Positions 3,615 through 38,426 of a DNA stretch of 64,000 bases are shown here, in pieces. The position numbers and the translations under genes were made by a program. The DNA lies in the NCBI GenBank assembly GCA_039030075.1, contig JBCCEW010000007.1, forward strand, positions 62,001 to 126,000, given 5' to 3'. The notes beneath the pieces were generated by a model that searched no databases, was not told where the DNA came from, and worked only from the letters and a program-made list of their open reading frames with translations. Every line of letters begins with the position of its first letter. Position 1 is the first letter of the stretch. The DNA comes from Myxococcota bacterium. Its GTDB lineage: Bacteria; Myxococcota_A; UBA9160; SMWR01.

Positions 3615-4868
3615 TCACTCGGTTTCGAGCGCGCCAGCCGCACCCAGTCGCGACAGGGGCCGGTAGCCGAAGATCAGCAACAGCGTGAGAGCGACGACCG
3701 GGATCGCACCGAAGGTCGCCATCGCGGCGCGATCCCCCACCTGGTCGGCGAGGGAACCGACCACGAAGCCGCCCACCTGGGCGAGCTGGGCGACGGTGAA
3801 GAGCAACCCCATCACGCGGCCGCGCATGCGTTCGGGCACCGACATCTGGAGCCCGGAGAAGGCCGAGATCTGCCAGATCTGGGCGGCCAGGCCCGACGCG
3901 AACTCGACGCACAAGAGGTACGGGAACGACGTCGCGAAGGCGTAGAGGAACACACAGCTCGAGAACCCGAGCATGCTGAAGGCGATCGCGAGACCCGGCC
4001 GGCGGAAGTCGGGCAGCATCGTCGCGACCAGGGAGCCCAGCAGCGTTCCGAAGCCCGCGGCGGCCGCGAGGGCACCCATCCCCTGGCTTCCCACCTCGAG
4101 GACATGCCGCGCGAACACCGGACGCATCGCGAAGATCGCCCCGTTGAAGAACGCCATCGCGCAGGCGAGCAGTGCCAGCGCGAGGGGTGGCGTGCGCACC
4201 ACGTAGGCGAGTCCTTCCTTGAGCTCGCGCCAGGGCTCGCGGGTGGCGCGCGCCGAGCGCCCGGGAATCGGGATGCGCAGCAGGAGCAGGGCTGCGACGG
4301 CGAAACTCGCGGCGCCGACCGACCAAGACCCCACCAGACCCACGGCGGCGATCAGGAAGCCGGCGAGCGCCGGCCCTCCCATCTGGCCGAGCCCGATCGC
4401 GGACGAGTTGAGTGCGATTGCGGGCTGGGTGTGGCGCGCGCCGACCACGTCGAAGACGTAGGCCTGACTCGCGGGTTGCCCCAACGCGTTCAGGAGCCCG
4501 CCCAACAGCGCCGCGACCAGCACGTGCCAGAGTGCGATCCACTCCGAGTGGACCAGCGCCGCCAGCGTCAGCGCCAGGCCCGCCGTGCCCAGCCGCGTCG
4601 CCGCCACCAGGTTGCGTTTCGCAAAAAGATCGGCGGCGACGCCGCCGAGGGGCGAACCGATCGCCACCACGACGCCCTGCACGGCGATCGCGAGCCCGAG
4701 GATCGTCCGCGAATCGGTCAGATCCGTGACGAGCCACTGGAGCGACAGCAGGTGCACCTGGATCGCGAAGAAGTGGAGCAGGTTCGAGCTCCACACGAAC
4801 CCGAAGTGGGGCAGGCGGAACGGGGCGAACGGCGACCCGCCTCGGCGATCGTTCGAAGGGTCGTTCAC
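3615..4868 (-). CDS. MFS transporter (EntS/MFS_3-like exporter)
   Basis: A 417-residue inner-membrane protein with about twelve hydrophobic segments. It has a major-facilitator loop 2-3 motif (GSPLGGVAADLFAKRN) and a related one near the middle (PERMRGRVMGLLF). The family resembles EntS-type exporters, which extrude small molecules by proton antiport. It starts with GTG and is the last of three minus-strand genes (MarR regulator, amidohydrolase, this), with gaps of only 25 and 46 bp, so it probably exports a compound or product linked to that set. It converges on the acyl-CoA dehydrogenase with 10 bp between stops. The substrate is unknown. Confidence 0.85.
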   Translation of the reverse strand: MNDPSNDRRGGSPFAPFRLPHFGFVWSSNLLHFFAIQVHLLSLQWLVTDLTDSRTILGLAIAVQGVVVAIGSPLGGVAADLFAKRNLVAATRLGTAGLALTLAALVHSEWIALWHVLVAALLGGLLNALGQPASQAYVFDVVGARHTQPAIALNSSAIGLGQMGGPALAGFLIAAVGLVGSWSVGAASFAVAALLLLRIPIPGRSARATREPWRELKEGLAYVVRTPPLALALLACAMAFFNGAIFAMRPVFARHVLEVGSQGMGALAAAAGFGTLLGSLVATMLPDFRRPGLAIAFSMLGFSSCVFLYAFATSFPYLLCVEFASGLAAQIWQISAFSGLQMSVPERMRGRVMGLLFTVAQLAQVGGFVVGSLADQVGDRAAMATFGAIPVVALTLLLIFGYRPLSRLGAAGALETE

Positions 4869-23824: not shown

Positions 23825-26041
23825 CTAGAGGCGCGCCACCGCGACCGCGCAGTGCTTGTAGGAAGGCTGGCGCGAGTAGGGGTCGAAGGCGCGTAGCGTG
23901 AGTCGGTTCGTTGCTTCGTGGTGCATCGCCGCGAAGAGCTGACCGGGCTGGACGTTCGGCGTGAGGTAGGCCTCGAACTCGGCCTTGCCCCGGCGCGAGC
24001 TCACCTGGACCGGGTCGCCACTCCGGATGCCCAGGTTCTCGGCGTCTTCGGGATGGATCTCGATGCGCGGAACGGCGCTGTGGAGCTTTGCGAGCACGGG
24101 CGACCGCTTCGTTCGGGTCTGGGTATGCCACTGGGCCGAGGAGCCCCGCCCGGTGAGCAACACGAACGGGTACCCGGCGTCCGTCGGCTCGGGAACCGCG
24201 CGCGGCATCTCGTAGCAGAAGGCCGCGCGCCCTCCTTCTCGCGGGAAGTGTCCGTCGGCGAACAGGCGGCGCTCGGGTGACGAGTCGGGCGACACTTCGG
24301 GGAAGGGCCACTGCACACCGCGCGCGGCGTCGAGCGCGCGGTAGCCGTCGATCCCCGAGAAGTTGCAGAAGCGTCCGCGGGAGAGTTCGCGCAGGGCATC
24401 GAAGACGTCCTCGGGCGTCTTCCAGCGTTCGAAAAGCTGCGCGCACCCCCAGGCCTCGGCCAGCAGCTGGAAGATGTGGAAGTCCGCCAGCGCCTGCCCC
24501 GGCGCGCGCCGCACCTTCTTCACCAGCCCGACCCGGCGCTCCGAGTTGATGAAGGTCCCATCCTTCTCGCCCCACCCGGCAGCGGGGAGCACGAGATCGG
24601 CTTGCAGGGCCGTCTCGGTGTCGGCATAGAGGTCCTGGACGACGAGGAAATCCAGGCGCCCGAGCAGCTCGCGGAAATCCTGCTGATCGATCCACGAGTG
24701 CGAACCGTTCGTGGCCACGATCCAGAGGCCGCGAATCGTCCCCGAGCGAATCCCTTCGACGATCTGGTCGTAGGCCCAGCCCTTGTGGTCGGGAATCGAC
24801 GCGGCCGGGATGCCGAGGATCTCGGCGACCTCGCGCCGATGCTCCGGGTCGTGGAACTCGCGTCCACCCAGCAGCGAGGAGGTGTTGCTGAACAGGCGCG
24901 ACCCCATCGCGTTGCACTGGCCGGTGATCGAGTTCGCGCCGGTGCCCGGCTTTCCGATGTTTCCGGTCAGGAGCGCGAGGTCGATGATCGCCTGGGCCAC
25001 GCGCACGGCCTCATGGCTCTGATTGACTCCCATCGTCCACCAGAAGCTGACGCGCTTGCCGGCCGCGATCGTGTCGGCGAGGTGCTCGAGACGCTCCGGC
25101 GAGAGGCCGGTGCCCTCTGCGACGCTGGCGAGGTCGAACTGGGCGACGAAGCGCTCGAACCCCTCGAAACCCTCGGTGTGCGCGTCGACGAACGCTTCAT
25201 CGACGGCGCCCCGCTGGATCAGGAGCCGCGCGAGTCCGTAGAAGAGCAGGAGGTCCGACTTCGGTGCCAACGCCAGGTGCTGAGTGGCCGCCATCGCCGT
25301 CTCGGTCTTGCGCGGATCGATCACCACGATCTCGGGTGCGTTCGGGTTCCGGCACACCCGCTCCCACAAGATCGGGTGGGCGATGCAGAGGTTCGAGCCG
25401 ACCAACACGATGACGTCGGACTCCTCGAAGTCCTGGTACGTGTACGGCGGTGCGTCGAAACCGAACGACTCTTTGTAGGCGGTGGCCGCGGTGGCCATGC
25501 ACTGACGCGTATTGCCGTCGCCGTGGACCATGCCCATGCCGAACTTCGCCAGCGCTCCGAAGTAGGCCAGCTCTTCGGTCGGGATCTGCCCCGTCCCGAG
25601 GAACGCCACCGACTCGCGACCGTGTTGCGCCTGGACGTCTCGAACCCGCGCACAGAAGGTGTCGAGCGCCTCCTCCCAGGACACGGGCTGCAGCGTCCCC
25701 GTGGCGTCGCGCAAGAGAGGACGGTCCGCACGGTCGGGCGCCGCCATCGGCGTGAGCGCTTCCCAGCCCTTCGGGCATGCCATGCCGAGGTTCACCGGGT
25801 ATTCGGTGTCGGGCGACAGGTTGATGGCTTCGCCATCGCGTAGATGGACCCGGAGCCCGCAGCCCGTCGAGCAGAAACCGCAGACCGTGGTGGTGGTGCG
25901 ATCGGGGGCGAGCCGAGACGGCACCTGGCCCAGTCCGAATGCGCCCGGTTCGCGGAGGAGGTCGCGGGTGAGCGGGCCGTCGCGCCGGTGCAGCAGATCC
26001 TGCGCTCCCTGAAGAACGCGCTCGGAAACCGATCGGGCCAT
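23825..26041 (-). CDS. nasA: Assimilatory nitrate reductase, molybdopterin catalytic subunit
   Basis: A 738-residue cytoplasmic molybdopterin oxidoreductase of the NasA/NarB type, which reduces nitrate to nitrite for assimilation. Four cysteines for an N-terminal 4Fe-4S cluster are C54, C57, C61 (CGFCSTGC) and C89 (GMACPKGW). The Mo-bis-MGD domains follow, ending in a dinucleotide-binding domain ([20 protein letters not shown]). There is no twin-arginine signal, which fits a cytoplasmic enzyme. GAGAGGAAGG precedes the ATG at 26041. It is the last gene of the nitrate operon, 19 bp after the iron-sulfur/membrane subunit that probably brings its electrons. Confidence 0.92.
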
Positions 26042-29135: not shown

Positions 29136-32045
29136 TTAGTGCGACGACGTGGCATCGCGGTGGGACGGACGTAGGGGCGCGCCGCTCGTGAAGTCATCCG
29201 GAAGCAGGGCGAACACTTCGCCCTCCCGGATCTCGACTTCGTAGGTCTCGAGCGCGAACTCGGGATCGCTGAGACCGCAACCGTTCTTCAAGGAGAACGT
29301 CTTCTTGTGGAGGGGACAGGCGACCTTCGGTTCGCCGGCCTGACTGCCCAACAGGCCCCGACCGATCACCATGTCCTTTCGATGCGGACACATCGCTTGC
29401 GTGGCGTACCACTCGCCGCGGCTCTCGAACCGGAACACCGCGATCTGGCGATTGCCCACCTTCACCGTCGAACCGCTGTCCTTCGGGAAGTCTTCGACCC
29501 GCGCAAGGTGCACCCAGCTGCGCGATTCCTCCTCGGAATCGGCTGCCGGGGGCTGGGCGTCGGGCCAATCCGACGGCCGACGCTGGCCCCGCTCCTCGAC
29601 GAACGAGAGCGTGGGGTCGGCCTCGGTATCCGTGGCGAAGTGCCGGAAGAGCGCGCGGCGCTCCGGGTTCTCGACGACTTCTCGCCACTCGCACTGGTAG
29701 CTGTCGACCAGTGCCTGCATGTCCCTCTCGAGCTGCTCGCAGATCCCGAGGGCGTCGTCACAGATGACGCGCTTCAGGTACTCGATGCCGCCATCCATCC
29801 GCTCGACCCAGCGCGCGGTGCGCTCCAGCGGGTTCGCAGTGTGGATGTAGTACATGAGGAAGCGGTCGATCAGCTGGATCACGCGCTCTTCGTCGACGTC
29901 GCTCGCCACCAGATCCGCGTGGCGCGGGTTGGAGCCGCCGTTCCCGCAGAGGTAGAGGTTCCAGCCGTTCTCGGTGGCAATGATCCCGAAGTCCTTGCCC
30001 TGGGCTTCGGCGCATTCGCGGATGCACCCCGAGACCGCGCTCTTGAGCTTGTGCGGCGCGCGGAGCCCGCGGTACCGCTCTTCGACGCGAACCGCGAAGC
30101 CGACGCTGTCCTGGACGCCGTAGCGACACCAGGTCGACCCGACGCAGCTCTTTACCGTCCGCAACGCCTTGCCGTAGGCGTGACCGCTCTCGAAGCCCGC
30201 GTTCACCAGCTCTTCCCAGATCGACGGAAGCTGGTCGACACGAGCGCCCAGCAGATCCACGCGCTGGCCGCCGGTGATCTTGCAGTAGAGGCCGTAGCGC
30301 TGGGCCACCTCGCCGAGGAGGATCAGCTTGTCGGGGGTGATCTCGCCGCCCGGGATCCGGGGAATGACCGAGTAGGTCCCGCCCCGCTGGATGTTCGCGA
30401 GGAAGCGATCGTTCGTGTCCTGGAGGTTCTGGTGGTTCAGGATCGGATCGTTCCAGGTCGTGGCGAGGATCGAAGCGACCACCGGTCGACAGATCTCGCA
30501 GCCCTGCCCCGCCCCGTGGGACGCGAGCAAAGCGCCGTAGCTCTCGATCCGATTGACCTTGATGATCTCGAAGAGCTCCTGACGCGTGAACGCGAAGTGC
30601 TCGCAGACGTTCGTGGTGACCTCGCGGCCCGCCTTCTCCAACTCGCGTGCGAGGATCTTCGTCACCTGGGGCAGACAGCCGCCGCAGCCGGTCCCGGCCC
30701 GCGTGCAGGCCTTGATCCCGCCGACGGTCGAGAGTTCCTCTTCCGCGATCGCGGCGCGGATCGCTCCGACACTCACGTCGTTGCAGGAACAGATCTGGAC
30801 GCTGTCGTCGAGTTCCTCGTCGCCCGCTTCGCCGCGCGGCCCGAACAAGAGCTCTTCGCTCGAATCCGGAAGCGGCGCCTCGCTCTTGCACTGCTGCAGG
30901 AGCGGCATGAAGCGGTCGGCGTCGCCGACCAGGATGCCGCCCACGAGTCGCTCGCCGTCGCTGCTGTAGAGCAGCTTCTGGTAGACGCCCCGGCGCGGGT
31001 CCTCGAAGACTGCGCAGTTTGCCTCGCCGGCTTCGTCGGCGAAGGGATCGCCGAAGCTCGCTACGTCGACCCCCATCAGCTTGAGCTTCGTGGACAAGTC
31101 GCCGCCCGCGAAGGCGCGCTCGCCGCCGATCAGCCGATCGACGAGCGCCTCGGCCATCTCGTAGCCCGGCGCGACCAGGCCGTAGATCATCCCGCGATGG
31201 ACGGCACACTCGCCGATTGCATAGACGCCGGGCTGACTGGTCGCCAGGCCATCGTCGACCACGATCCCGCCGCGCTGGGCCACCTCGAGGCCAGCGGTAC
31301 GTGCGAGGTCGTCTCGCGGCCGGATGCCCGCGGACACCACGACCATCTCGACCGGGAGATCGTCGCCTTCCTTGAAGCGCAGGCCCGTCACCTGGTCGGC
31401 CTCGCCGAGAATGCACTCGGTTCGGACGTCTACGTGGACCTGGACGCCGAGGGCCTCGATCTCACGGGTCAGGAGCGCCGCGCCCCGCGCATCGACCTGA
31501 CGAGGCATGAGACGCGGCGCGGCCTCGAGCACGTGGGTCTCGAGGCCCATATCGCGGACCGCCTTCGCGGCCTCCAAACCCAGGAGTCCGCCTCCGATGA
31601 CCGCCGCGCGCCGAGCCTGCTCGCCCCAGGCGGAGATGGCTTCGAGGTCTTCGATGGTGCGGTAGACGAAGACGCCATCCTGGGTCGCCCCGGGAATCGG
31701 CGGCACGAAGGGAACCGACCCGGTGGCGAAGCAGAGCACGTCGTAGCCGACGTAGCGTCCCTGGCTCGTATAGAGTTCGCGCTTCTCGAGATCGATCTGC
31801 TCGACCCGCTCGCCGAGCCGCAGGTCGATGCCCATCTCCGCGTATGCTTCGGCGGTGGTCAGGGCCAGGTCACCCGCGGACTTTCCCGAGAAGAACTCGG
31901 AGAGGTGCACGCGGTCATAGGCCGGCCGCGGCTCCTCGCCGAAGACCTGGATCTCGTAGCGGCCTTCGGCGTCGCGTTCGCGCAGGCGCTCGCAGAAGCG
32001 GTGCCCCACCATGCCGTTGCCGATGACGACCACCCGTTCGGGCAT
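29136..32045 (-). CDS. nirB: NAD(P)H nitrite reductase, NirB-NirD fusion
   Basis: A 969-residue enzyme reducing nitrite to ammonium with six electrons from NAD(P)H. The order is: FAD/NAD domains (GNGMVGHRF near residue 8, VIGGGLLGLEAAKAV near 155), a BFD-like 2Fe-2S domain (QICSCND with GTGCGGCLPQ), and the sirohaem/4Fe-4S domain (SCVGSTWCRYG, SGCIRECAEAQG). After a short linker comes the NirD small subunit as a Rieske-like domain with a complete ligand set, C886/H888 and C910/H913. NirB and NirD are usually separate proteins, so this is a natural fusion. Stop and start are within 3-6 bp of its neighbours, consistent with one operon. Confidence 0.93.
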   Translation of the reverse strand: MPERVVVIGNGMVGHRFCERLRERDAEGRYEIQVFGEEPRPAYDRVHLSEFFSGKSAGDLALTTAEAYAEMGIDLRLGERVEQIDLEKRELYTSQGRYVGYDVLCFATGSVPFVPPIPGATQDGVFVYRTIEDLEAISAWGEQARRAAVIGGGLLGLEAAKAVRDMGLETHVLEAAPRLMPRQVDARGAALLTREIEALGVQVHVDVRTECILGEADQVTGLRFKEGDDLPVEMVVVSAGIRPRDDLARTAGLEVAQRGGIVVDDGLATSQPGVYAIGECAVHRGMIYGLVAPGYEMAEALVDRLIGGERAFAGGDLSTKLKLMGVDVASFGDPFADEAGEANCAVFEDPRRGVYQKLLYSSDGERLVGGILVGDADRFMPLLQQCKSEAPLPDSSEELLFGPRGEAGDEELDDSVQICSCNDVSVGAIRAAIAEEELSTVGGIKACTRAGTGCGGCLPQVTKILARELEKAGREVTTNVCEHFAFTRQELFEIIKVNRIESYGALLASHGAGQGCEICRPVVASILATTWNDPILNHQNLQDTNDRFLANIQRGGTYSVIPRIPGGEITPDKLILLGEVAQRYGLYCKITGGQRVDLLGARVDQLPSIWEELVNAGFESGHAYGKALRTVKSCVGSTWCRYGVQDSVGFAVRVEERYRGLRAPHKLKSAVSGCIRECAEAQGKDFGIIATENGWNLYLCGNGGSNPRHADLVASDVDEERVIQLIDRFLMYYIHTANPLERTARWVERMDGGIEYLKRVICDDALGICEQLERDMQALVDSYQCEWREVVENPERRALFRHFATDTEADPTLSFVEERGQRRPSDWPDAQPPAADSEEESRSWVHLARVEDFPKDSGSTVKVGNRQIAVFRFESRGEWYATQAMCPHRKDMVIGRGLLGSQAGEPKVACPLHKKTFSLKNGCGLSDPEFALETYEVEIREGEVFALLPDDFTSGAPLRPSHRDATSSH

Positions 32046-32048
32046 GGG

Positions 32049-32840
32049 TCAGGCCGCCTCTTTCTCGCGATCCTGATCGGCGAGGAAGCCGATCAGGTGC
32101 TCTCGATACTTGTAGTAGTCGGGGTGCTCGAGGATCTTCGCGCGATCGCGCGGCCGCGGCAGATCGATCGACAGGATGTCGCCGACCTTCGCCGCGGGCC
32201 CGTTGGTCATCATCACCACCCGATCCGACAGGAAGATCGCCTCGTCGACGTCGTGGGTGACCATCAGCGCGGTCTTGCGGTCGCGACTCCACAGCTCGAG
32301 GAGCACGTCCTGGAGCTCCATCCGCGTCAGCGAATCGAGCATCCCGAAGGGCTCATCGAGCAGCAATATCTTCGGCGAGAGGGCGAACGCTCGGGCGATG
32401 CCAACCCGCTGACACATGCCGCCCGAGAGCTCCTGCGGCGTGCGGTGCATTGCGTCGCGCAGCCCGACTCGCGCGAGGTAGTACTCGGCGATCTCGCGCT
32501 GCTGCACTTTCGTGCCGTGCGGGTACACCTGCCGAACGCCGAGCATCACGTTCTCGAATGCCGACATCCAAGGGAGGAGACATGGGGCCTGGAACACGAC
32601 ACCCCGATCCGGTCCAGGCCCCATGATCTCGCGGCCGTCGAGAGCGACGTTTCCGTCGGTGATCTCGTTCAGACCAGCGACCATCGACAGCACCGTCGAT
32701 TTGCCGCAGCCCGAATGGCCGATCAGTGTGATGAACTCTCCCTGGCGCACCCGGAGGTCGAAGCCATCGACGATGACCGCGGGTCCTGCGGGTGTGGGAT
32801 ACACCTTGCGAAGCTTGACGATCTCGAGAAAGCGTTCCAT
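32049..32840 (-). CDS. nrtD: Nitrate/nitrite ABC transporter ATP-binding protein (second ATPase)
   Basis: A 263-residue ABC ATPase with Walker [10 protein letters not shown], signature LSGGMCQRV and Walker [10 protein letters not shown], plus the [10 protein letters not shown] and [14 protein letters not shown] segments typical of the nitrate/taurine (NrtD/SsuB) group. GAGAGGAG lies before the ATG at 32840; the frame starts further upstream but overlaps the preceding gene. It lies 3 bp before nirBD. With the preceding ATPase it probably forms a heterodimer that powers NrtB. The names NrtC and NrtD are assigned by order only, because neither protein carries the sensor-like extra domain of cyanobacterial NrtC. 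Confidence 0.9.
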
Positions 32841-32853
32841 CGCTTCGCTCCTC

Positions 32854-33714
32854 TCAGCGCACCATCGGCGCACGCGGCGGCATCAGATCGGCCGGCGCGA
32901 GGTCGGGGAGAACGAGTTCTTCGGCCCGGGCGGCGGGCTGGGCGCGACGGCCTTCGGCCACCAGATAGGCCGTGATCTCGTTGCGCAGTTCCTTGAACTC
33001 GGGGTTGTGGTTGACCGCCCGCCGATCGCGCGGCCGGGCCAGCGTCACCGGGAAGCTGTCGCCAAGGGTGGCGCGCGGACCGGGACGCAACGGGATGATC
33101 CGGTCCGCCAGCAGGATCGCTTCGTCGACGTCGTTGGTGATGAGCACGACGGTCTTGCGATCGCTCTCCCAGATCCGCTCGAGCTCGTCCTGGAGCTCGG
33201 CACGGGTCAACGCGTCGAGGGCCGAGAGCGGCTCGTCGAGGAGCAGCATCTTCGGGTCCATCGCGAGGGCCCGTGCGACGGACACGCGCTGCCGCATGCC
33301 GCCCGAGAGCTCGGACGGATACTTCCCCTTCGCCGGTAGCAGGTGGACCATGTCGACGTAGCGCTCGACGTGCTCGGCCCTTTCCGCCTTCGACCAGTCG
33401 GGACGCACCTGCTTGACGGCGAGCTCGACGTTCTCGAAGACCGTGAGCCACGGCAGCAGCGAGTAGTTCTGGAACACGACGCCGCGGTCCGGCCCCGGCC
33501 CGTCGATCGGCTTCCCCTGCAGCGCCACCTCGCCCTGGTCCGGCTCGAGGAGCCCGGACATCATCGAGATCAGCGTGGTCTTCCCGCTGCCCGAGAATCC
33601 GACGATGGCCAGGAACTCCCCCTCGTCCATCCGCAGATTGACGTCGTGGAGGACTTCGGTGGCGCCGAAGGACTTGCCGACGCCGGTCATCTCGAAGAAG
33701 GGTTCCGCCGCCAT
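32854..33714 (-). CDS. nrtC: Nitrate/nitrite ABC transporter ATP-binding protein (first ATPase)
   Basis: A 286-residue ABC ATPase with Walker [10 protein letters not shown], signature LSGGMRQRV and Walker [14 protein letters not shown]. The last 35 residues form a Pro/Ala-rich tail ([17 protein letters not shown]) not seen in the second ATPase. The ATG at 33714 shares one base with the permease stop (TGATG), so the two are translated together; the longer frame upstream of it is the permease shadow. It probably dimerises with the following ATPase. Confidence 0.9.
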
Positions 33715-34733
33715 CAGGCCGTCGCTCCGCCGTCGAAGCTCACGAGCTTCTGGAGGGTGATCATCAGGCGGTCCAGGGCGAAACCGATCAGGCCGATCGT
33801 GAAGACGGCGACCATGATCTGGGCGAGCGTCGAGCTGCTGCCGTTCTGGAACATGTCCCAGACGAACTTCCCGAGGCCCGGGTTCTGAGCCAGCATCTCG
33901 GCGGCGATCAACACCATCCAGCCGACTCCCAGCGAGAGCCGCAGGCCGGTGAAGATCAGCGGCAGCGCCGACGGAATCACGATCTTGAACACCTGCGCGG
34001 GCCAGGAGAGCCGGAGCACCCGCGCCACGTTCAGGTGATCGCGATCGACCGACGCGACGCCCAGCGCCGTGTTCACCAGCGTCGGCCACAGGGAGCAGAG
34101 CGCGACCGTGATGGCCGAGCTCACGAAGGACTTCTCGAAGAGCGGGTCGTCACTCGTGTAGAGCGCACTCACGAGGATCATCACGATCGGAAGCCAGGCC
34201 AGCGGCGACACCGGCTTGAAGATCTGGATCAGTGGGTTGAAGGCCGCGTAGAACAGCGTCGACAGCCCGCACAGGATCCCGATCGGCACCGCGATCAGCG
34301 ATGCGATCAGAAAACCGGCGAAGACCGTCTGCAGGCTCGTGACGATCTGGTCGAAGTAGGTGGGCTTCCCCGAGTAGCTGCGATCCTTCCACTCGCGGCC
34401 CTCGGCGAGGTACTTCTCCTTCAGGCCCTCCATGCGCTCGTAGAAGGCGACTTCCTTCGCCCGCTCTGCACGGTGTTCGTCGACGAGCACGCCCGCCTCG
34501 TGCCAGACCTCGGCGGGCCCGGGAACCGCGCCAATGCTCGTCTCGATGTTCGACGCCACGAAGGACCAGCCGAGACCGAAGACTGCCAACGCCACGATCG
34601 GGATCCCGACCGTGCGCAGGATCTCGCGGAACTGGGCGGCCGGGTCGTCCCCCGTCGCCAACCGCAGGATCGGGACGAAGAAGTCGAGTCCCAGTGACTC
34701 GAACCCGTTGATGACGCGCGCTTTCGTAGTCAT
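33714..34733 (-). CDS. nrtB: Nitrate/nitrite ABC transporter permease
   Basis: A 339-residue membrane protein of the NrtB/SsuC permease type with about six helices in the C-terminal two thirds. The loop [22 protein letters not shown] is the EAA-type loop that contacts the ATPases. A first helix near residue 45-65 is followed by a charged insertion (about 85-125) before the core, as in NrtB proteins. It overlaps the first ATPase gene by one base and follows nrtA by 57 bp, giving a standard binding protein-permease-ATPase order. Confidence 0.92.
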
Positions 34734-34790: not shown

Positions 34791-36161
34791 CTACTCCGAA
34801 GCGACCGATTTCGCGGCCTGGTTGCCGACCTTGAACTTCGAGAGGTACGCGTTCGGCTTCTTGCCGTCGTAGACGACGCCATCGATGAAGTCGCCCGTCG
34901 GCGCCTTGTAGCCGTCGGTCTGGGGAATCTCGCTGGCGTCGATCTTCCCCTCGGCCACCAACAGCTCGGCCGCCTTTCGGTAGAGGTCGGGTCGGTAGAC
35001 CTTCTTCGCGACCTCGTCGTACCAGCCGTCGGGCTTCTCTTCGGAGATCTGCCCCCAGCGCCGCATCTGGGTCAGGAACCAGACCGCGTCGCTGTAGAAC
35101 GGGTACGTCGCGTAGTAGCGATAGAAGACATTGAAGTCGGGCATGCTGCGCTTGTCGCCCTTCTCGAACTCGAAGGTTCCCGTCATGCTGTTCGCGATGA
35201 CTTCCTCGTCCGCGCCGACGTACTCACTGCGCGAGAGGATCTTCACGGCTTCCTTGCGGTTCGCGGGGGTGGCGTCCAGCCACTTGCCGGCGCGGATCAG
35301 CGCCTTGACGATCGCGGTGGTCGTGTTCGGGTTCTTCTCGGTGAACTCCCGCGTCAGCCCGAAGACCTTCTCCGGATTGTTCTTCCAGATCTCGTAGTTG
35401 GTGACGACGGGGACGCCGATGCCCTTGAAGACGGCCTGCTGGTTCCAGGGCTCGCCGACGCAGTAGCCCTGGATCGTCCCCTGCTCGAGGGTGGCGGGCA
35501 TCTGGGGCGGCGGCGTCACCGAGAGCAGCACGTCGGCATTCGTCGTGCCCGTGGTGTCGGTGGGCGTGTAGTAACCGGGGCTGATTCCGGACGCGGCCAG
35601 CCAGTAGCGGATCTCGTAGTTGTGGGTGGAGACCGGGAACACCATGCCCATGCGCAGGGGAGTTCCGAGTTCCTTGTACTCCTCGACGACGGGCTTCAGC
35701 GCGTCGGCGGTGACCGGGCGCTCGATCTTCGACGCCGCCAGGGCCGGGTCGTGGCTCTTCATCTGGGACCAGATCTCGTTCGAGACCGTGATGCCGTTCC
35801 CGTTCAGGTCCATGCTGAAGGGTGTGATGACGTCGGCCTTGGTGCCGATCCCGATCGTCGCGCCGATCGGCTGGCCAGCGAGCATGTGCGCACCGTCGAG
35901 CTCGCCGCCGATCACCCGGTCGAGGAGGATCTTCCAGTTCGCCTGCGCTTCGAGGGTCACGAAGAGCCCCTCTTCCTCGAAGTAGCCCTTCTCCTTGGCG
36001 ATCACGAGCGGCGCGCAGTCGGTGAGCTTGATGAAGCCGAATTTGAGCTCGTCCTTCTCGAGGTCGAGCATCTCTGCGAACGCGGTGTTCGACAGGCACA
36101 GCGCGAGCAGGGTGAAGCCGATCGAAAAGGCGCGAGTGAGGGAGGTGCGCAGTCGGTTCAT
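34791..36161 (-). CDS. nrtA: Nitrate/nitrite-binding protein
   Basis: A 456-residue periplasmic solute-binding protein, including a signal peptide (about residues 1-29, ending NTAFA). The mature part has the NrtA opening [26 protein letters not shown] and the later [16 protein letters not shown] typical of nitrate-binding proteins. The frame opens earlier at 36287, but the ATG at 36161 gives the signal peptide and lies after the leader terminator. First structural gene of the operon, expressed from a sigma-54 promoter and controlled through the leader described in separate entries. Confidence 0.92.
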
Positions 36162-36191: not shown

Positions 36192-36248
36192 CGGGAAAAC
36201 GAAAACGGCGTCCGAGACGGTCGACCTTCGACCGCTTCGGACGCCGTT
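36192..36248 (-). terminator. Intrinsic terminator (attenuator) in the nrtA leader
   Basis: The RNA forms a long hairpin: AACGGCGUCCGA pairs perfectly with UCGGACGCCGUU (12 bp), then a G-U pair and a 7 bp inner stem CGGUCGA/UCGACCG close on a three-base loop. The 3' arm runs directly into UUUUCGUUUU. It stands 31 bp before the nrtA start codon and would stop transcription before the operon. Its 5' arm is shared with the upstream AACGGC-loop hairpin, so only one of the two can form. Confidence 0.9.
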
Positions 36249-36254
36249 GTCCGA
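36237..36254 (-). promoter_or_regulatory. ANTAR-target hairpin P2 overlapping the terminator (antiterminator)
   Basis: In the nrtA leader RNA, UCGGAC pairs with GUCCGA around a six-base loop AACGGC. Known targets of ANTAR-domain antiterminators (NasR, NasT, AmiR, EutV) are hairpins with a hexanucleotide loop having A at position 1 and G at position 4, as here. The loop and 3' stem are the 5' arm of the terminator, so NasT binding here would keep the terminator from forming. The match is direct; the function is inferred from those systems. Confidence 0.8.
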
Positions 36255-36285
36255 GAAGCTGCATTCTTGCGGTGTCCGGTTCTTC

Positions 36286-36320
36286 ACCCCCCGTTGGGCT
36301 TCAGCGAACCGTTCACCGAA
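36286..36320 (-). promoter_or_regulatory. ANTAR-target hairpins P1 (two candidates)
   Basis: Two adjacent hairpins lie at the start of the leader RNA. At 36300-36320, UUCGGUG pairs with CGCUGAA (with G-U pairs) around AACGGUU. At 36286-36299, GCCC pairs with GGGU around AACGGG. Both loops start AACGG, the same as the P2 loop, giving A1 and G4. ANTAR targets are paired hairpins; either of these could be the first partner of P2, 31-45 bases downstream, or they could form a pair themselves. The longer stem is more convincing. Confidence 0.6.
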
Positions 36321-36335
36321 CTCGAGGGCTTCAAG

Positions 36336-36351
36336 AGCAATCCGCGTGCCA
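36336..36351 (-). promoter_or_regulatory. Sigma-54 promoter of the nrtA operon
   Basis: TGGCACGCGGATTGCT matches the -24/-12 consensus TGGCACG-N4-TTGC(A/T) at every position. Transcription would start about 11-12 bp downstream, near 36325, just before the first leader hairpin (36320). It lies 118 bp after the nasS stop and would let the structural genes be expressed apart from nasST. Sigma-54 control normally implies an NtrC-type activator, whose gene is not in this window. Confidence 0.85.
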
Positions 36352-36468: not shown

Positions 36469-37764
36469 TCAGTTCCGATCGGCGAGTTCGTCGAGCCGAA
36501 CGCGCAGCGCGGACGTGGGCAATGCCTCGAGGTAGGCGAGCCAGTCGTTCGGATCGAAGCGAAGACCGTCGAAGAACAGATCCGGACCCATCGCGATGGC
36601 CTCGGTGCTGGCTTCCAGAGCCCAGGGCGCGGGGTGGCCGCCCTCGGTCTTGTCGTCCTCCAACGGCGCAGGCAGCCCGAGATCCGAGGCCGCGCGGCGG
36701 TGCCATTCGGGGCGGTAGACGGACTCGGCGACGTCCCGTACGCAGAAGGGCTTCTCGATGTAGCCCCAGCGCAGCATCTGTCCGAGTAGCCAGACCCCGT
36801 GCGAGACCCAGGGATGGGTGGCGGCGTTGCGATAGAAGACGGGCAGGTTGGGCTCGGCGGCACCGGAACGGTCGCCGCACAGCGAGCGCTGGACGGCGTC
36901 GCCGGGGGCGTCGACGAAGCTCTCGCCACACAGGACGTAAGAGACTTCCTGGCGATGCTCGGTGGCATCCGCCCAGCACGCGGCCTCCAACAGCGCGCGT
37001 AAGAGTGCGAGATGCGTGTTGGGGTGACGCTCGAGCCAGGGTTCGGAGACGCCGAGCAGCTTCTCTGGCGAGTGGTTCCAGATCTGGTGCTTGGTCACGA
37101 GGGTGTGCCCGCTGCCGCGCTGGGCCGCGACCGCGTTCCAGGGCTCGCCCACGCAATAGCCATCGATCTCGTCCCGCTCGAGGTGGTCGACCATGAAGGG
37201 CGGCGGCACGACCCGCAGCCGCACGTCGTGGGTCGGGTCGATCCCGGCGGCCGCGAGCCAGTACCGAAGCTCCAGATCGTGGCTCGAATACGGAAAGACG
37301 ACGCCGAAACGCAGCGGCGGCCGCCCCCGTTCTCGGTCCGCGGCAATCAATCGAGCGAGGGTCGCGCCCGCGAGCGCGGGATCCTGGGGAGCGGTGCCCA
37401 GCTCGGCCCGGAGGCGCGCGTGCAGATCGGCGGATACGGTGATCGCGTTGCCATTCAGGCTCAAGGAGAGGCCCGTGCACAGCGTGACGCTCGGACTCCC
37501 GAGGCCGAGCGCGGCGGCCAATGGCATGGGAGCGAGCATCGGCGCCGCATCCAACGCGCCGGCCACGACCTTGTCGCGCAGGCTGGCCCAGGACGACTCG
37601 CGGGAGAGGGTCACGTCGAGGCCGTGCTTGCGAAAGAAGCCACGCTCCTTCGCGATCACCAGGGGAGCGCAATCAGCGAGGGGGATGAAGCCGATCTGGA
37701 GGCGCGGCTTTTCGATCCCTTCGGAACCGGCCGCATGGATCCTCGTCTGGACGGGGTCACTCAC
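36469..37764 (-). CDS. nasS: NasS, cytoplasmic nitrate/nitrite sensor of the NasST system
   Basis: A 431-residue relative of NrtA without any signal peptide, so it stays in the cytoplasm. It has the nitrate-binding family opening [23 protein letters not shown] and [16 protein letters not shown]. In known NasST systems, NasS holds NasT until nitrate or nitrite binds and releases it. The GTG start overlaps the nasT stop (GTGA), so both are made together. The 3' end is followed by the nrtA promoter and leader rather than directly by nrtA, as expected for a regulator of that leader. Confidence 0.9.
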
Positions 37765-38387
37765 GTGCGGCCTCCGCGCGGAGGCCGGCCCGAGCTCGCT
37801 TCGGGAGCCAACAGCTCGGCCGCCGAAAGCACCGCACGGGCTACGTCGACGATCCGTTTGCCCTGATCCATGGCCAGCTTTCGCATGCTACTGAAGGCCT
37901 CCTGCTCGGATTGACCCCGGGTCTCCATCAAGACTCCCTTCGCTTTCTCGATCAGCTTCCTCTCCGCCAGGCTCGACTGGGCCCGCTCGAGCTCGTCGCG
38001 GAGCGACTGGAACGTCTCGAAGCGCGCGCAGGCGAGCTCGAGCAGCGGCCGAATCCGCTCGGGCGTGGCGCCCTTCACCACGTACGCAGCCACCCCGGCG
38101 CGCACGGCGGTACGCATGCTCTCGGTGTCGCCGTCGTCCACGAACATCACGATCGGACGCGGCTGCTCGCGGTGAATCCGGTGCATGTCCTCGAGCGTGT
38201 CGCGCGAGGGCGAATCCATGTCGATCACGACGACGTCGGGCTGCACGCCGCGCAGCGTGGCGTGGAGATCGACGGGGCCGGTGAGCTGTGCCACCACGAG
38301 ACACCCCGCCTGTTCCAGGTCGCGCGCGAGGTCACGGGCGCGATCGGGCCGATCGTCGACGAGGAGAACACGGAGCTTTTCGGTCAC
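37761..38387 (-). CDS. nasT: NasT, ANTAR-domain response regulator (RNA-binding antiterminator)
   Basis: A 208-residue protein with an N-terminal receiver domain (VLLVDDRPDR, VVVIDMDSP with the phospho-acceptor-type aspartate, AYVVKG) and a C-terminal ANTAR helical domain (KLIEKAKGVLMETRGQSEQE, then ARAVLSAAELL). ANTAR proteins bind paired hairpins in leader RNA and prevent termination. The GTG at 38387 has AGGA before it and lies just after a sigma-54-like site; the longer frame (to 38420) would start upstream of the predicted transcript. First gene of the nitrate locus, overlapping nasS. Confidence 0.9.
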   Translation of the reverse strand: MTEKLRVLLVDDRPDRARDLARDLEQAGCLVVAQLTGPVDLHATLRGVQPDVVVIDMDSPSRDTLEDMHRIHREQPRPIVMFVDDGDTESMRTAVRAGVAAYVVKGATPERIRPLLELACARFETFQSLRDELERAQSSLAERKLIEKAKGVLMETRGQSEQEAFSSMRKLAMDQGKRIVDVARAVLSAAELLAPEASSGRPPRGGRT

Positions 38388-38410: not shown

Positions 38411-38426
38411 CGCAAGTCACGTGCCG
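38411..38426 (-). promoter_or_regulatory. Sigma-54-like promoter of nasT
   Basis: CGGCACGTGACTTGCG has the GGCACG-N4-TTGC core of the -24/-12 promoter and differs from consensus at the first and last bases. The predicted start near 38400 leaves a 13-base leader with the ribosome-binding site for the GTG at 38387. A GCAC-N6-GTGC inverted repeat at 38482-38495, about 56 bp further upstream, could be a poor NtrC-type site, although the usual spacing is one base longer. Confidence 0.6.

Follow-up and report, generated by a model that had tools for sequence, protein, structure and literature searches.

A sigma-54 promoter and a predicted NasS-NasT antitermination leader ahead of the nitrate operon of an uncultured Myxococcota lineage

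The analysed window, a 64-kb stretch of DNA from a Myxococcota bacterium, contains a nitrate operon in the order nasT-nasS-leader-nrtA-nrtB-ATPases-nirBD-porin-FeS-nasA (Table 1). The leader, on the minus strand, has the nasS stop at 36469 on one side and the nrtA ATG at 36161 on the other. The placement of nrtA downstream of the leader and of NasT in the second gene upstream, both given in an earlier sequence-only reading of this DNA, was seen again here. The receiver-ANTAR protein NasT adjoins the NrtA-like NasS, the gene arrangement of a NasS-NasT system, and is the only ANTAR protein encoded in the genome. Its start is more likely GTG 38387 than GTG 38420, because the latter falls within a sigma-54-like site. 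NasS shares 51-61% identity and NrtA 84-88% identity with the corresponding proteins of two relatives (L113 and L142), and the nasA-like protein is 65% identical to that of another (L143).

Table 1. Features of the nitrate operon and its leader in the window, with coordinates of related leaders and promoters elsewhere
Feature	Position	Strand	Remarks
nasA-like assimilatory nitrate reductase, catalytic subunit	23825-26032	-	NasA/NasC models, below their cut-offs
nirB-nirD, fused nitrite reductase	29136-32045	-	TIGR02374 and TIGR02378 above cut-off
Nitrate ABC transporter ATPase (NrtC/D type)	32049-32873	-	TIGR01184 above cut-off
nrtB, permease	33714-34733	-	
nrtA, nitrate-binding protein	34791-36161	-	First structural gene of the operon
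Intrinsic terminator	36204-36248	-	12-bp outer stem, then T tract (TTTTCGTTTT); 5' arm = loop + 3' arm of P2
P2, ANTAR-type hairpin CGGAC-AACGGC-GTCCG	36238-36253	-	Loop A1/G4; overlaps terminator
P1, ANTAR-type hairpin GCCC-AACGGG-GGGT	36286-36299	-	Loop A1/A2/G4; C-G closing pair as in relatives
5' hairpin, non-ANTAR	36300-36320	-	Best fold 9 bp with CGG triloop; AACGG buried in stem
Sigma-54 -24/-12 promoter TGGCACGCGGATTGCT	36336-36351	-	TGGCAC-N5-TTGCW; expected start near 36325
nasS, NrtA-like sensor	36469-37764	-	Pfam NMT1_2; overlaps nasT end
nasT, receiver + ANTAR antiterminator	37761-38387	-	Pfam Response_reg and ANTAR
Second sigma-54-like site CGGCACGTGACTTGCG	38411-38426	-	Ahead of nasT
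Relatives' nas promoters with A or G ending -12	L112 4873-4858; L142 4057-4072; L113 4187-4202; L143 3308-3323; L036 5409-5424		
Leaders with at least three hexaloops	L046 3886-3961; L048 3864-3938; L050 3865-3936; L105 3854-3931; L039 2441-2507; L042 369-457		

The consensus -24/-12 site noted in the first reading proved exact, and it is the sole exact sigma-54 match in the 64-kb window, where about 0.8 chance matches are expected at one mismatch or fewer. RpoN, the cognate factor of such a promoter, is encoded in the genome. TGGCAC-N5-TTG recurs at the equivalent position in L112, L113, L142, L143 and L036, and is thus present in all six leaders with that of the window. The window alone ends its -12 element in C; the other five read TTGA or TTGG, and in the genomes of those relatives overall TTGCW sites outnumber TTGRW sites. 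As an addition of the present analysis, nasT has a sigma-54-like site of its own, and comparable sites stand ahead of nasT in all six relatives examined (L112, L113, L114, L142, L143 and L036); taken singly, each falls between about the 95th and 99th percentile of the null or a little higher. For NasT-type genes and nitrate transporters, mostly in Proteobacteria, promoters of this kind have been predicted in a survey of sigma-54 regulons (PMC12316311).

The genome encodes NtrC-like regulators, none of them above the curated NtrC cut-off. No match to the canonical NtrC site GCAC-N7-GTGC was found at one mismatch or fewer between nasS and the promoter, and the canonical pattern showed no enrichment. 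CGCAGTGC dyads number nine in the window; the three at 36388-36381, 36431-36424 and 38489-38482 are close upstream of the two sigma-54-like sites and are no more than candidate activator sites. In L112, CACTGCGCAGTGCG stands ahead of nasT. In L113 the sigma-54-like site is repeated upstream of the leader, and a strong terminator of its own, without an ANTAR hairpin, follows this second copy; the stretch (3897-4035) may give a separate short RNA.

The AACGGC-loop hairpin assigned to 36237-36254 in the first reading holds up, as P2 (UCGGAC-AACGGC-GUCCGA) folds as a hexaloop at -9.3 kcal/mol (z -2.8). Its sequence, CGGACAAYGRCGTCCG, has one exact match genome-wide, the P2 locus itself. The next genome match to this pattern after P2 itself (L116) seems to fall within a coding sequence and was rejected as a second NasT target. 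The terminator behind P2 (-39.2 kcal/mol, z -6.0), described with its U-run in the first reading, has a 12-bp outer stem, and its 5' arm is formed by the loop together with the 3' arm of P2. Through these shared segments P2 and the terminator are mutually exclusive by sequence, and P2 is the A1/G4 hexaloop overlapping a terminator that an ANTAR leader has. Together they were found at a single place in the window, and 40 shuffled 64-kb strands gave no instance. Lying downstream of nasTS and being very stable, the structure could in principle be a plain terminator that ends the nasTS messages or insulates nrtA, with sigma-54 as the sole control. This explanation is highly improbable, considering that a consensus NasT hairpin supplies, in its loop and 3' arm, exactly the 5' arm of the terminator, that the predicted sigma-54 start is upstream of the hairpin, and that other nas leaders have the same layout.

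P1 is a short hairpin of 4 bp including one G-U, and its stability is no better than that of shuffles (z -0.29). Among shuffles of the P1 stretch, 0.8% gave a hexaloop closed by the same C-G pair, and P1 supplies the upstream A1/G4 hexaloop with at least 3 bp that belongs to an ANTAR leader. Of the AACGG-loop hairpins formerly placed at 36286-36320, P1 (36299-36286) exists, whereas 36320-36300, if read as a hexaloop (AACGGU), would have a G-U closing pair followed by a U-C mismatch; its best fold being the triloop stem, it was rejected as a third ANTAR loop. The ANTAR-type loops therefore number two, and the idea of an excess over the usual two, based on three AACGG loops, had to be dropped. 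Nor would three be unique, because three-hexaloop leaders occur in other NasT-bearing bacteria. In the modelled fold of the whole leader, the 5' hairpin may open, pair with GAACCGGACACC (36282-36271) and enclose P1.

At least three consecutive A1/G4 hexaloop hairpins before a terminator were seen in leaders of Reyranella, Rhizobium, Enhydrobacter, Parvibaculum and Thiodiazotropha. In L046, L048, L050 and L105 the leader sits between nasT and a nasS-like gene, and therefore NasS itself would be antiterminated.

With whole NasT as the query, a search of 60 relatives picked up mainly the receiver domains found in other regulators, and the ANTAR family was used instead. An ANTAR protein above cut-off was found in 6 of 80 genomes of the order, the own genome included, so the NasT system is patchy in the order. 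The arrangement nasT-nasS-leader-nrtA is present in L142, L113 and L112, nasT-leader-nrtA without nasS between in L143, and nasT-nasS-leader followed by an NrtA-like gene in L036 (Candidatus Binatia). Genome G062 (L143 2591-3544, and L144) carries a pair of NasT-like genes: one is followed directly by a leader and nrtA, with no intervening nasS, and the other is close to a divergent nasS-like gene. In the alignment of the six leaders (the window and five relatives), for which the hairpins were anchored by hand on their loops and in which P1 of L142 is poor, 92.6% of cells pair, six of nine pairs change on both sides, and sliding the partner abolishes the pairing. The stem covariation anticipated for related leaders was found for P1 and P2, kept with compensatory changes across the five relatives; the third stem was rejected as an ANTAR element.

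A covariance model (R1) was built from 14 nas-locus leaders of other bacteria with the window left out, and its pairs covary strongly, a result that is partly circular because the members had been picked for pairing. The top match in the window, 36271-36238, reached 22.4 bits with an E of 0.0088, against 13.2 bits for the runner-up, and the same place was the best match in the 5.76-Mb genome, with a genome-wide E of 0.8. This check, suggested in the first reading, recovered the P2 half as expected, but the first hairpin was put on a tetraloop stem at 36271-36260 that has no A1/G4 hexaloop, and not on P1. The Rfam search of the leader gave no match above the gathering threshold and only a chance-level one, at 36250-36195, to the plasmid-type antisense RNA ctRNA_p42d (22.4 bits). 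Such an identity can practically be dismissed: the score is far under the gathering threshold of 50 (E 0.48) and merely reflects the GC-rich terminator, and in the surroundings, a nitrate operon on a 264-kb contig, no opposed replication gene target is seen. A consensus for the NasT target RNA was gained, with C-AANGNN-G hexaloops and P2 often GGAC-AACGRC-GTCC, where Rfam is without a usable match here.

P1 and P2 of the window are 47 nt apart from loop to loop, separated by a 32-nt linker. In Enterococcus, for which a two-hairpin mechanism with the second hairpin overlapping the terminator was described, the eut linkers recognized by EutV measure 5-12 nt, and induction already suffers when the eutP linker is extended to 14 nt (PMC3369931). 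Close spacing is not strictly defining for ANTAR leaders, since a variable linker is permitted in the published search model. A fixed spacing specific to the lineage was rejected, with distances of 25 (L143), 29 (L112), 43 (L113), 51 (L036) and 74 nt (L142). That NasT of this lineage reads two hairpins 25 to 74 nt apart, joined by spacer structure, is a doubtful proposition; if true, the short-linker rule derived from EutV would not hold here. Nothing in the leader is unusual apart from the long spacing and a weak P1. The finding makes the rule on hairpin spacing for ANTAR proteins testable.

Alternatively, NasT might read P2 alone or with another partner, namely the 36271-36260 hairpin or an extended stem around P1, with P1 itself non-functional. 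In favour are the strong conservation of P2, the short P1, which is no more stable than shuffles and was bypassed by R1, and the P1 of L142, which has 3 bp and a mismatch at its distance of 74 nt. Against this stand the C-AANG-loop-G of P1, kept in six of six leaders with compensatory changes, the rarity of the closed hexaloop in shuffles, and the stronger P1 hairpins of L036, L112, L113 and L143, so that the alternative is considered unlikely.

Considering the sequence elements and their overlap, the R1 match, NasT as sole ANTAR protein, RpoN, the gene context and the covarying leaders of relatives, the control first proposed, initiation by sigma-54 followed by NasS-NasT antitermination through P1 and P2 versus the terminator, is strongly supported by inference, and such a two-step gate is very probable. 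Under nitrogen limitation, sigma-54 RNA polymerase with an NtrC-type activator would start near 36325. While nitrate is absent, NasS would hold NasT, and the RNA would fold into the 36248-36204 terminator and stop before nrtA. Binding of nitrate or nitrite to NasS would free NasT, which would then bind the A1/G4 hexaloops of P1 and P2 and keep P2 together, so that the loop and 3' arm of P2 are withheld from the terminator and the polymerase could proceed into nrtA and the genes behind. In Paracoccus, nitrate dissociates NasS-NasT, NasS with nitrate or nitrite bound releases NasT, and NasT binds the nasA leader (PMC3795266); that a hairpin in the leader is required was shown in other work (PMC5424462). 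The short P1, the placement of the first hairpin by R1 and its genome-wide E, a linker beyond the length already impairing EutV, and the missing canonical NtrC site weigh against the gate, as does the full-leader fold, in which the terminator is favoured and the first hairpin opened.

Work on NasS-NasT in Azotobacter vinelandii is reportedly that of Wang et al. 2012. The nas leaders of Paracoccus denitrificans and, reportedly, A. vinelandii are likewise controlled by NasS-NasT, with nasT-nasS ahead of the structural genes, regulatory hairpins in the leader and Ntr control in addition (PMC3795266, PMC5424462). Different from both, the operon here is nrtABC-nirBD-nasA, the lineage is apparently non-proteobacterial and the P1-P2 spacing is long. 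NasR at nasF of Klebsiella oxytoca likewise combines Ntr-controlled initiation with ANTAR antitermination of a nitrate operon (PMC7496416, PMC5424462), but NasR itself senses nitrate, whereas a separate NasS would do so here. The EutV targets of Enterococcus faecalis likewise have two A1/G4 hexaloop hairpins, the second over the terminator (PMC3369931), with shorter linkers and with ethanolamine as the signal via EutW, in place of nitrate via NasS as predicted here.

The leader belongs to a known kind of control, since NasS-NasT, the two-hairpin rule and the sigma-54 survey have already been published, and the control stretch is essentially textbook, well-formed, familiar and ordinary in kind. 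Its significance is that the same gate of nitrogen limitation and nitrate is probably at work, its promoter, switch and regulator genes side by side, in a lineage that is uncultured and apparently not one of the well-studied Proteobacteria. The nrtA DNA is about 75-77% identical to alphaproteobacterial nrtA (L071, L059 and L058), hinting at horizontal transfer.
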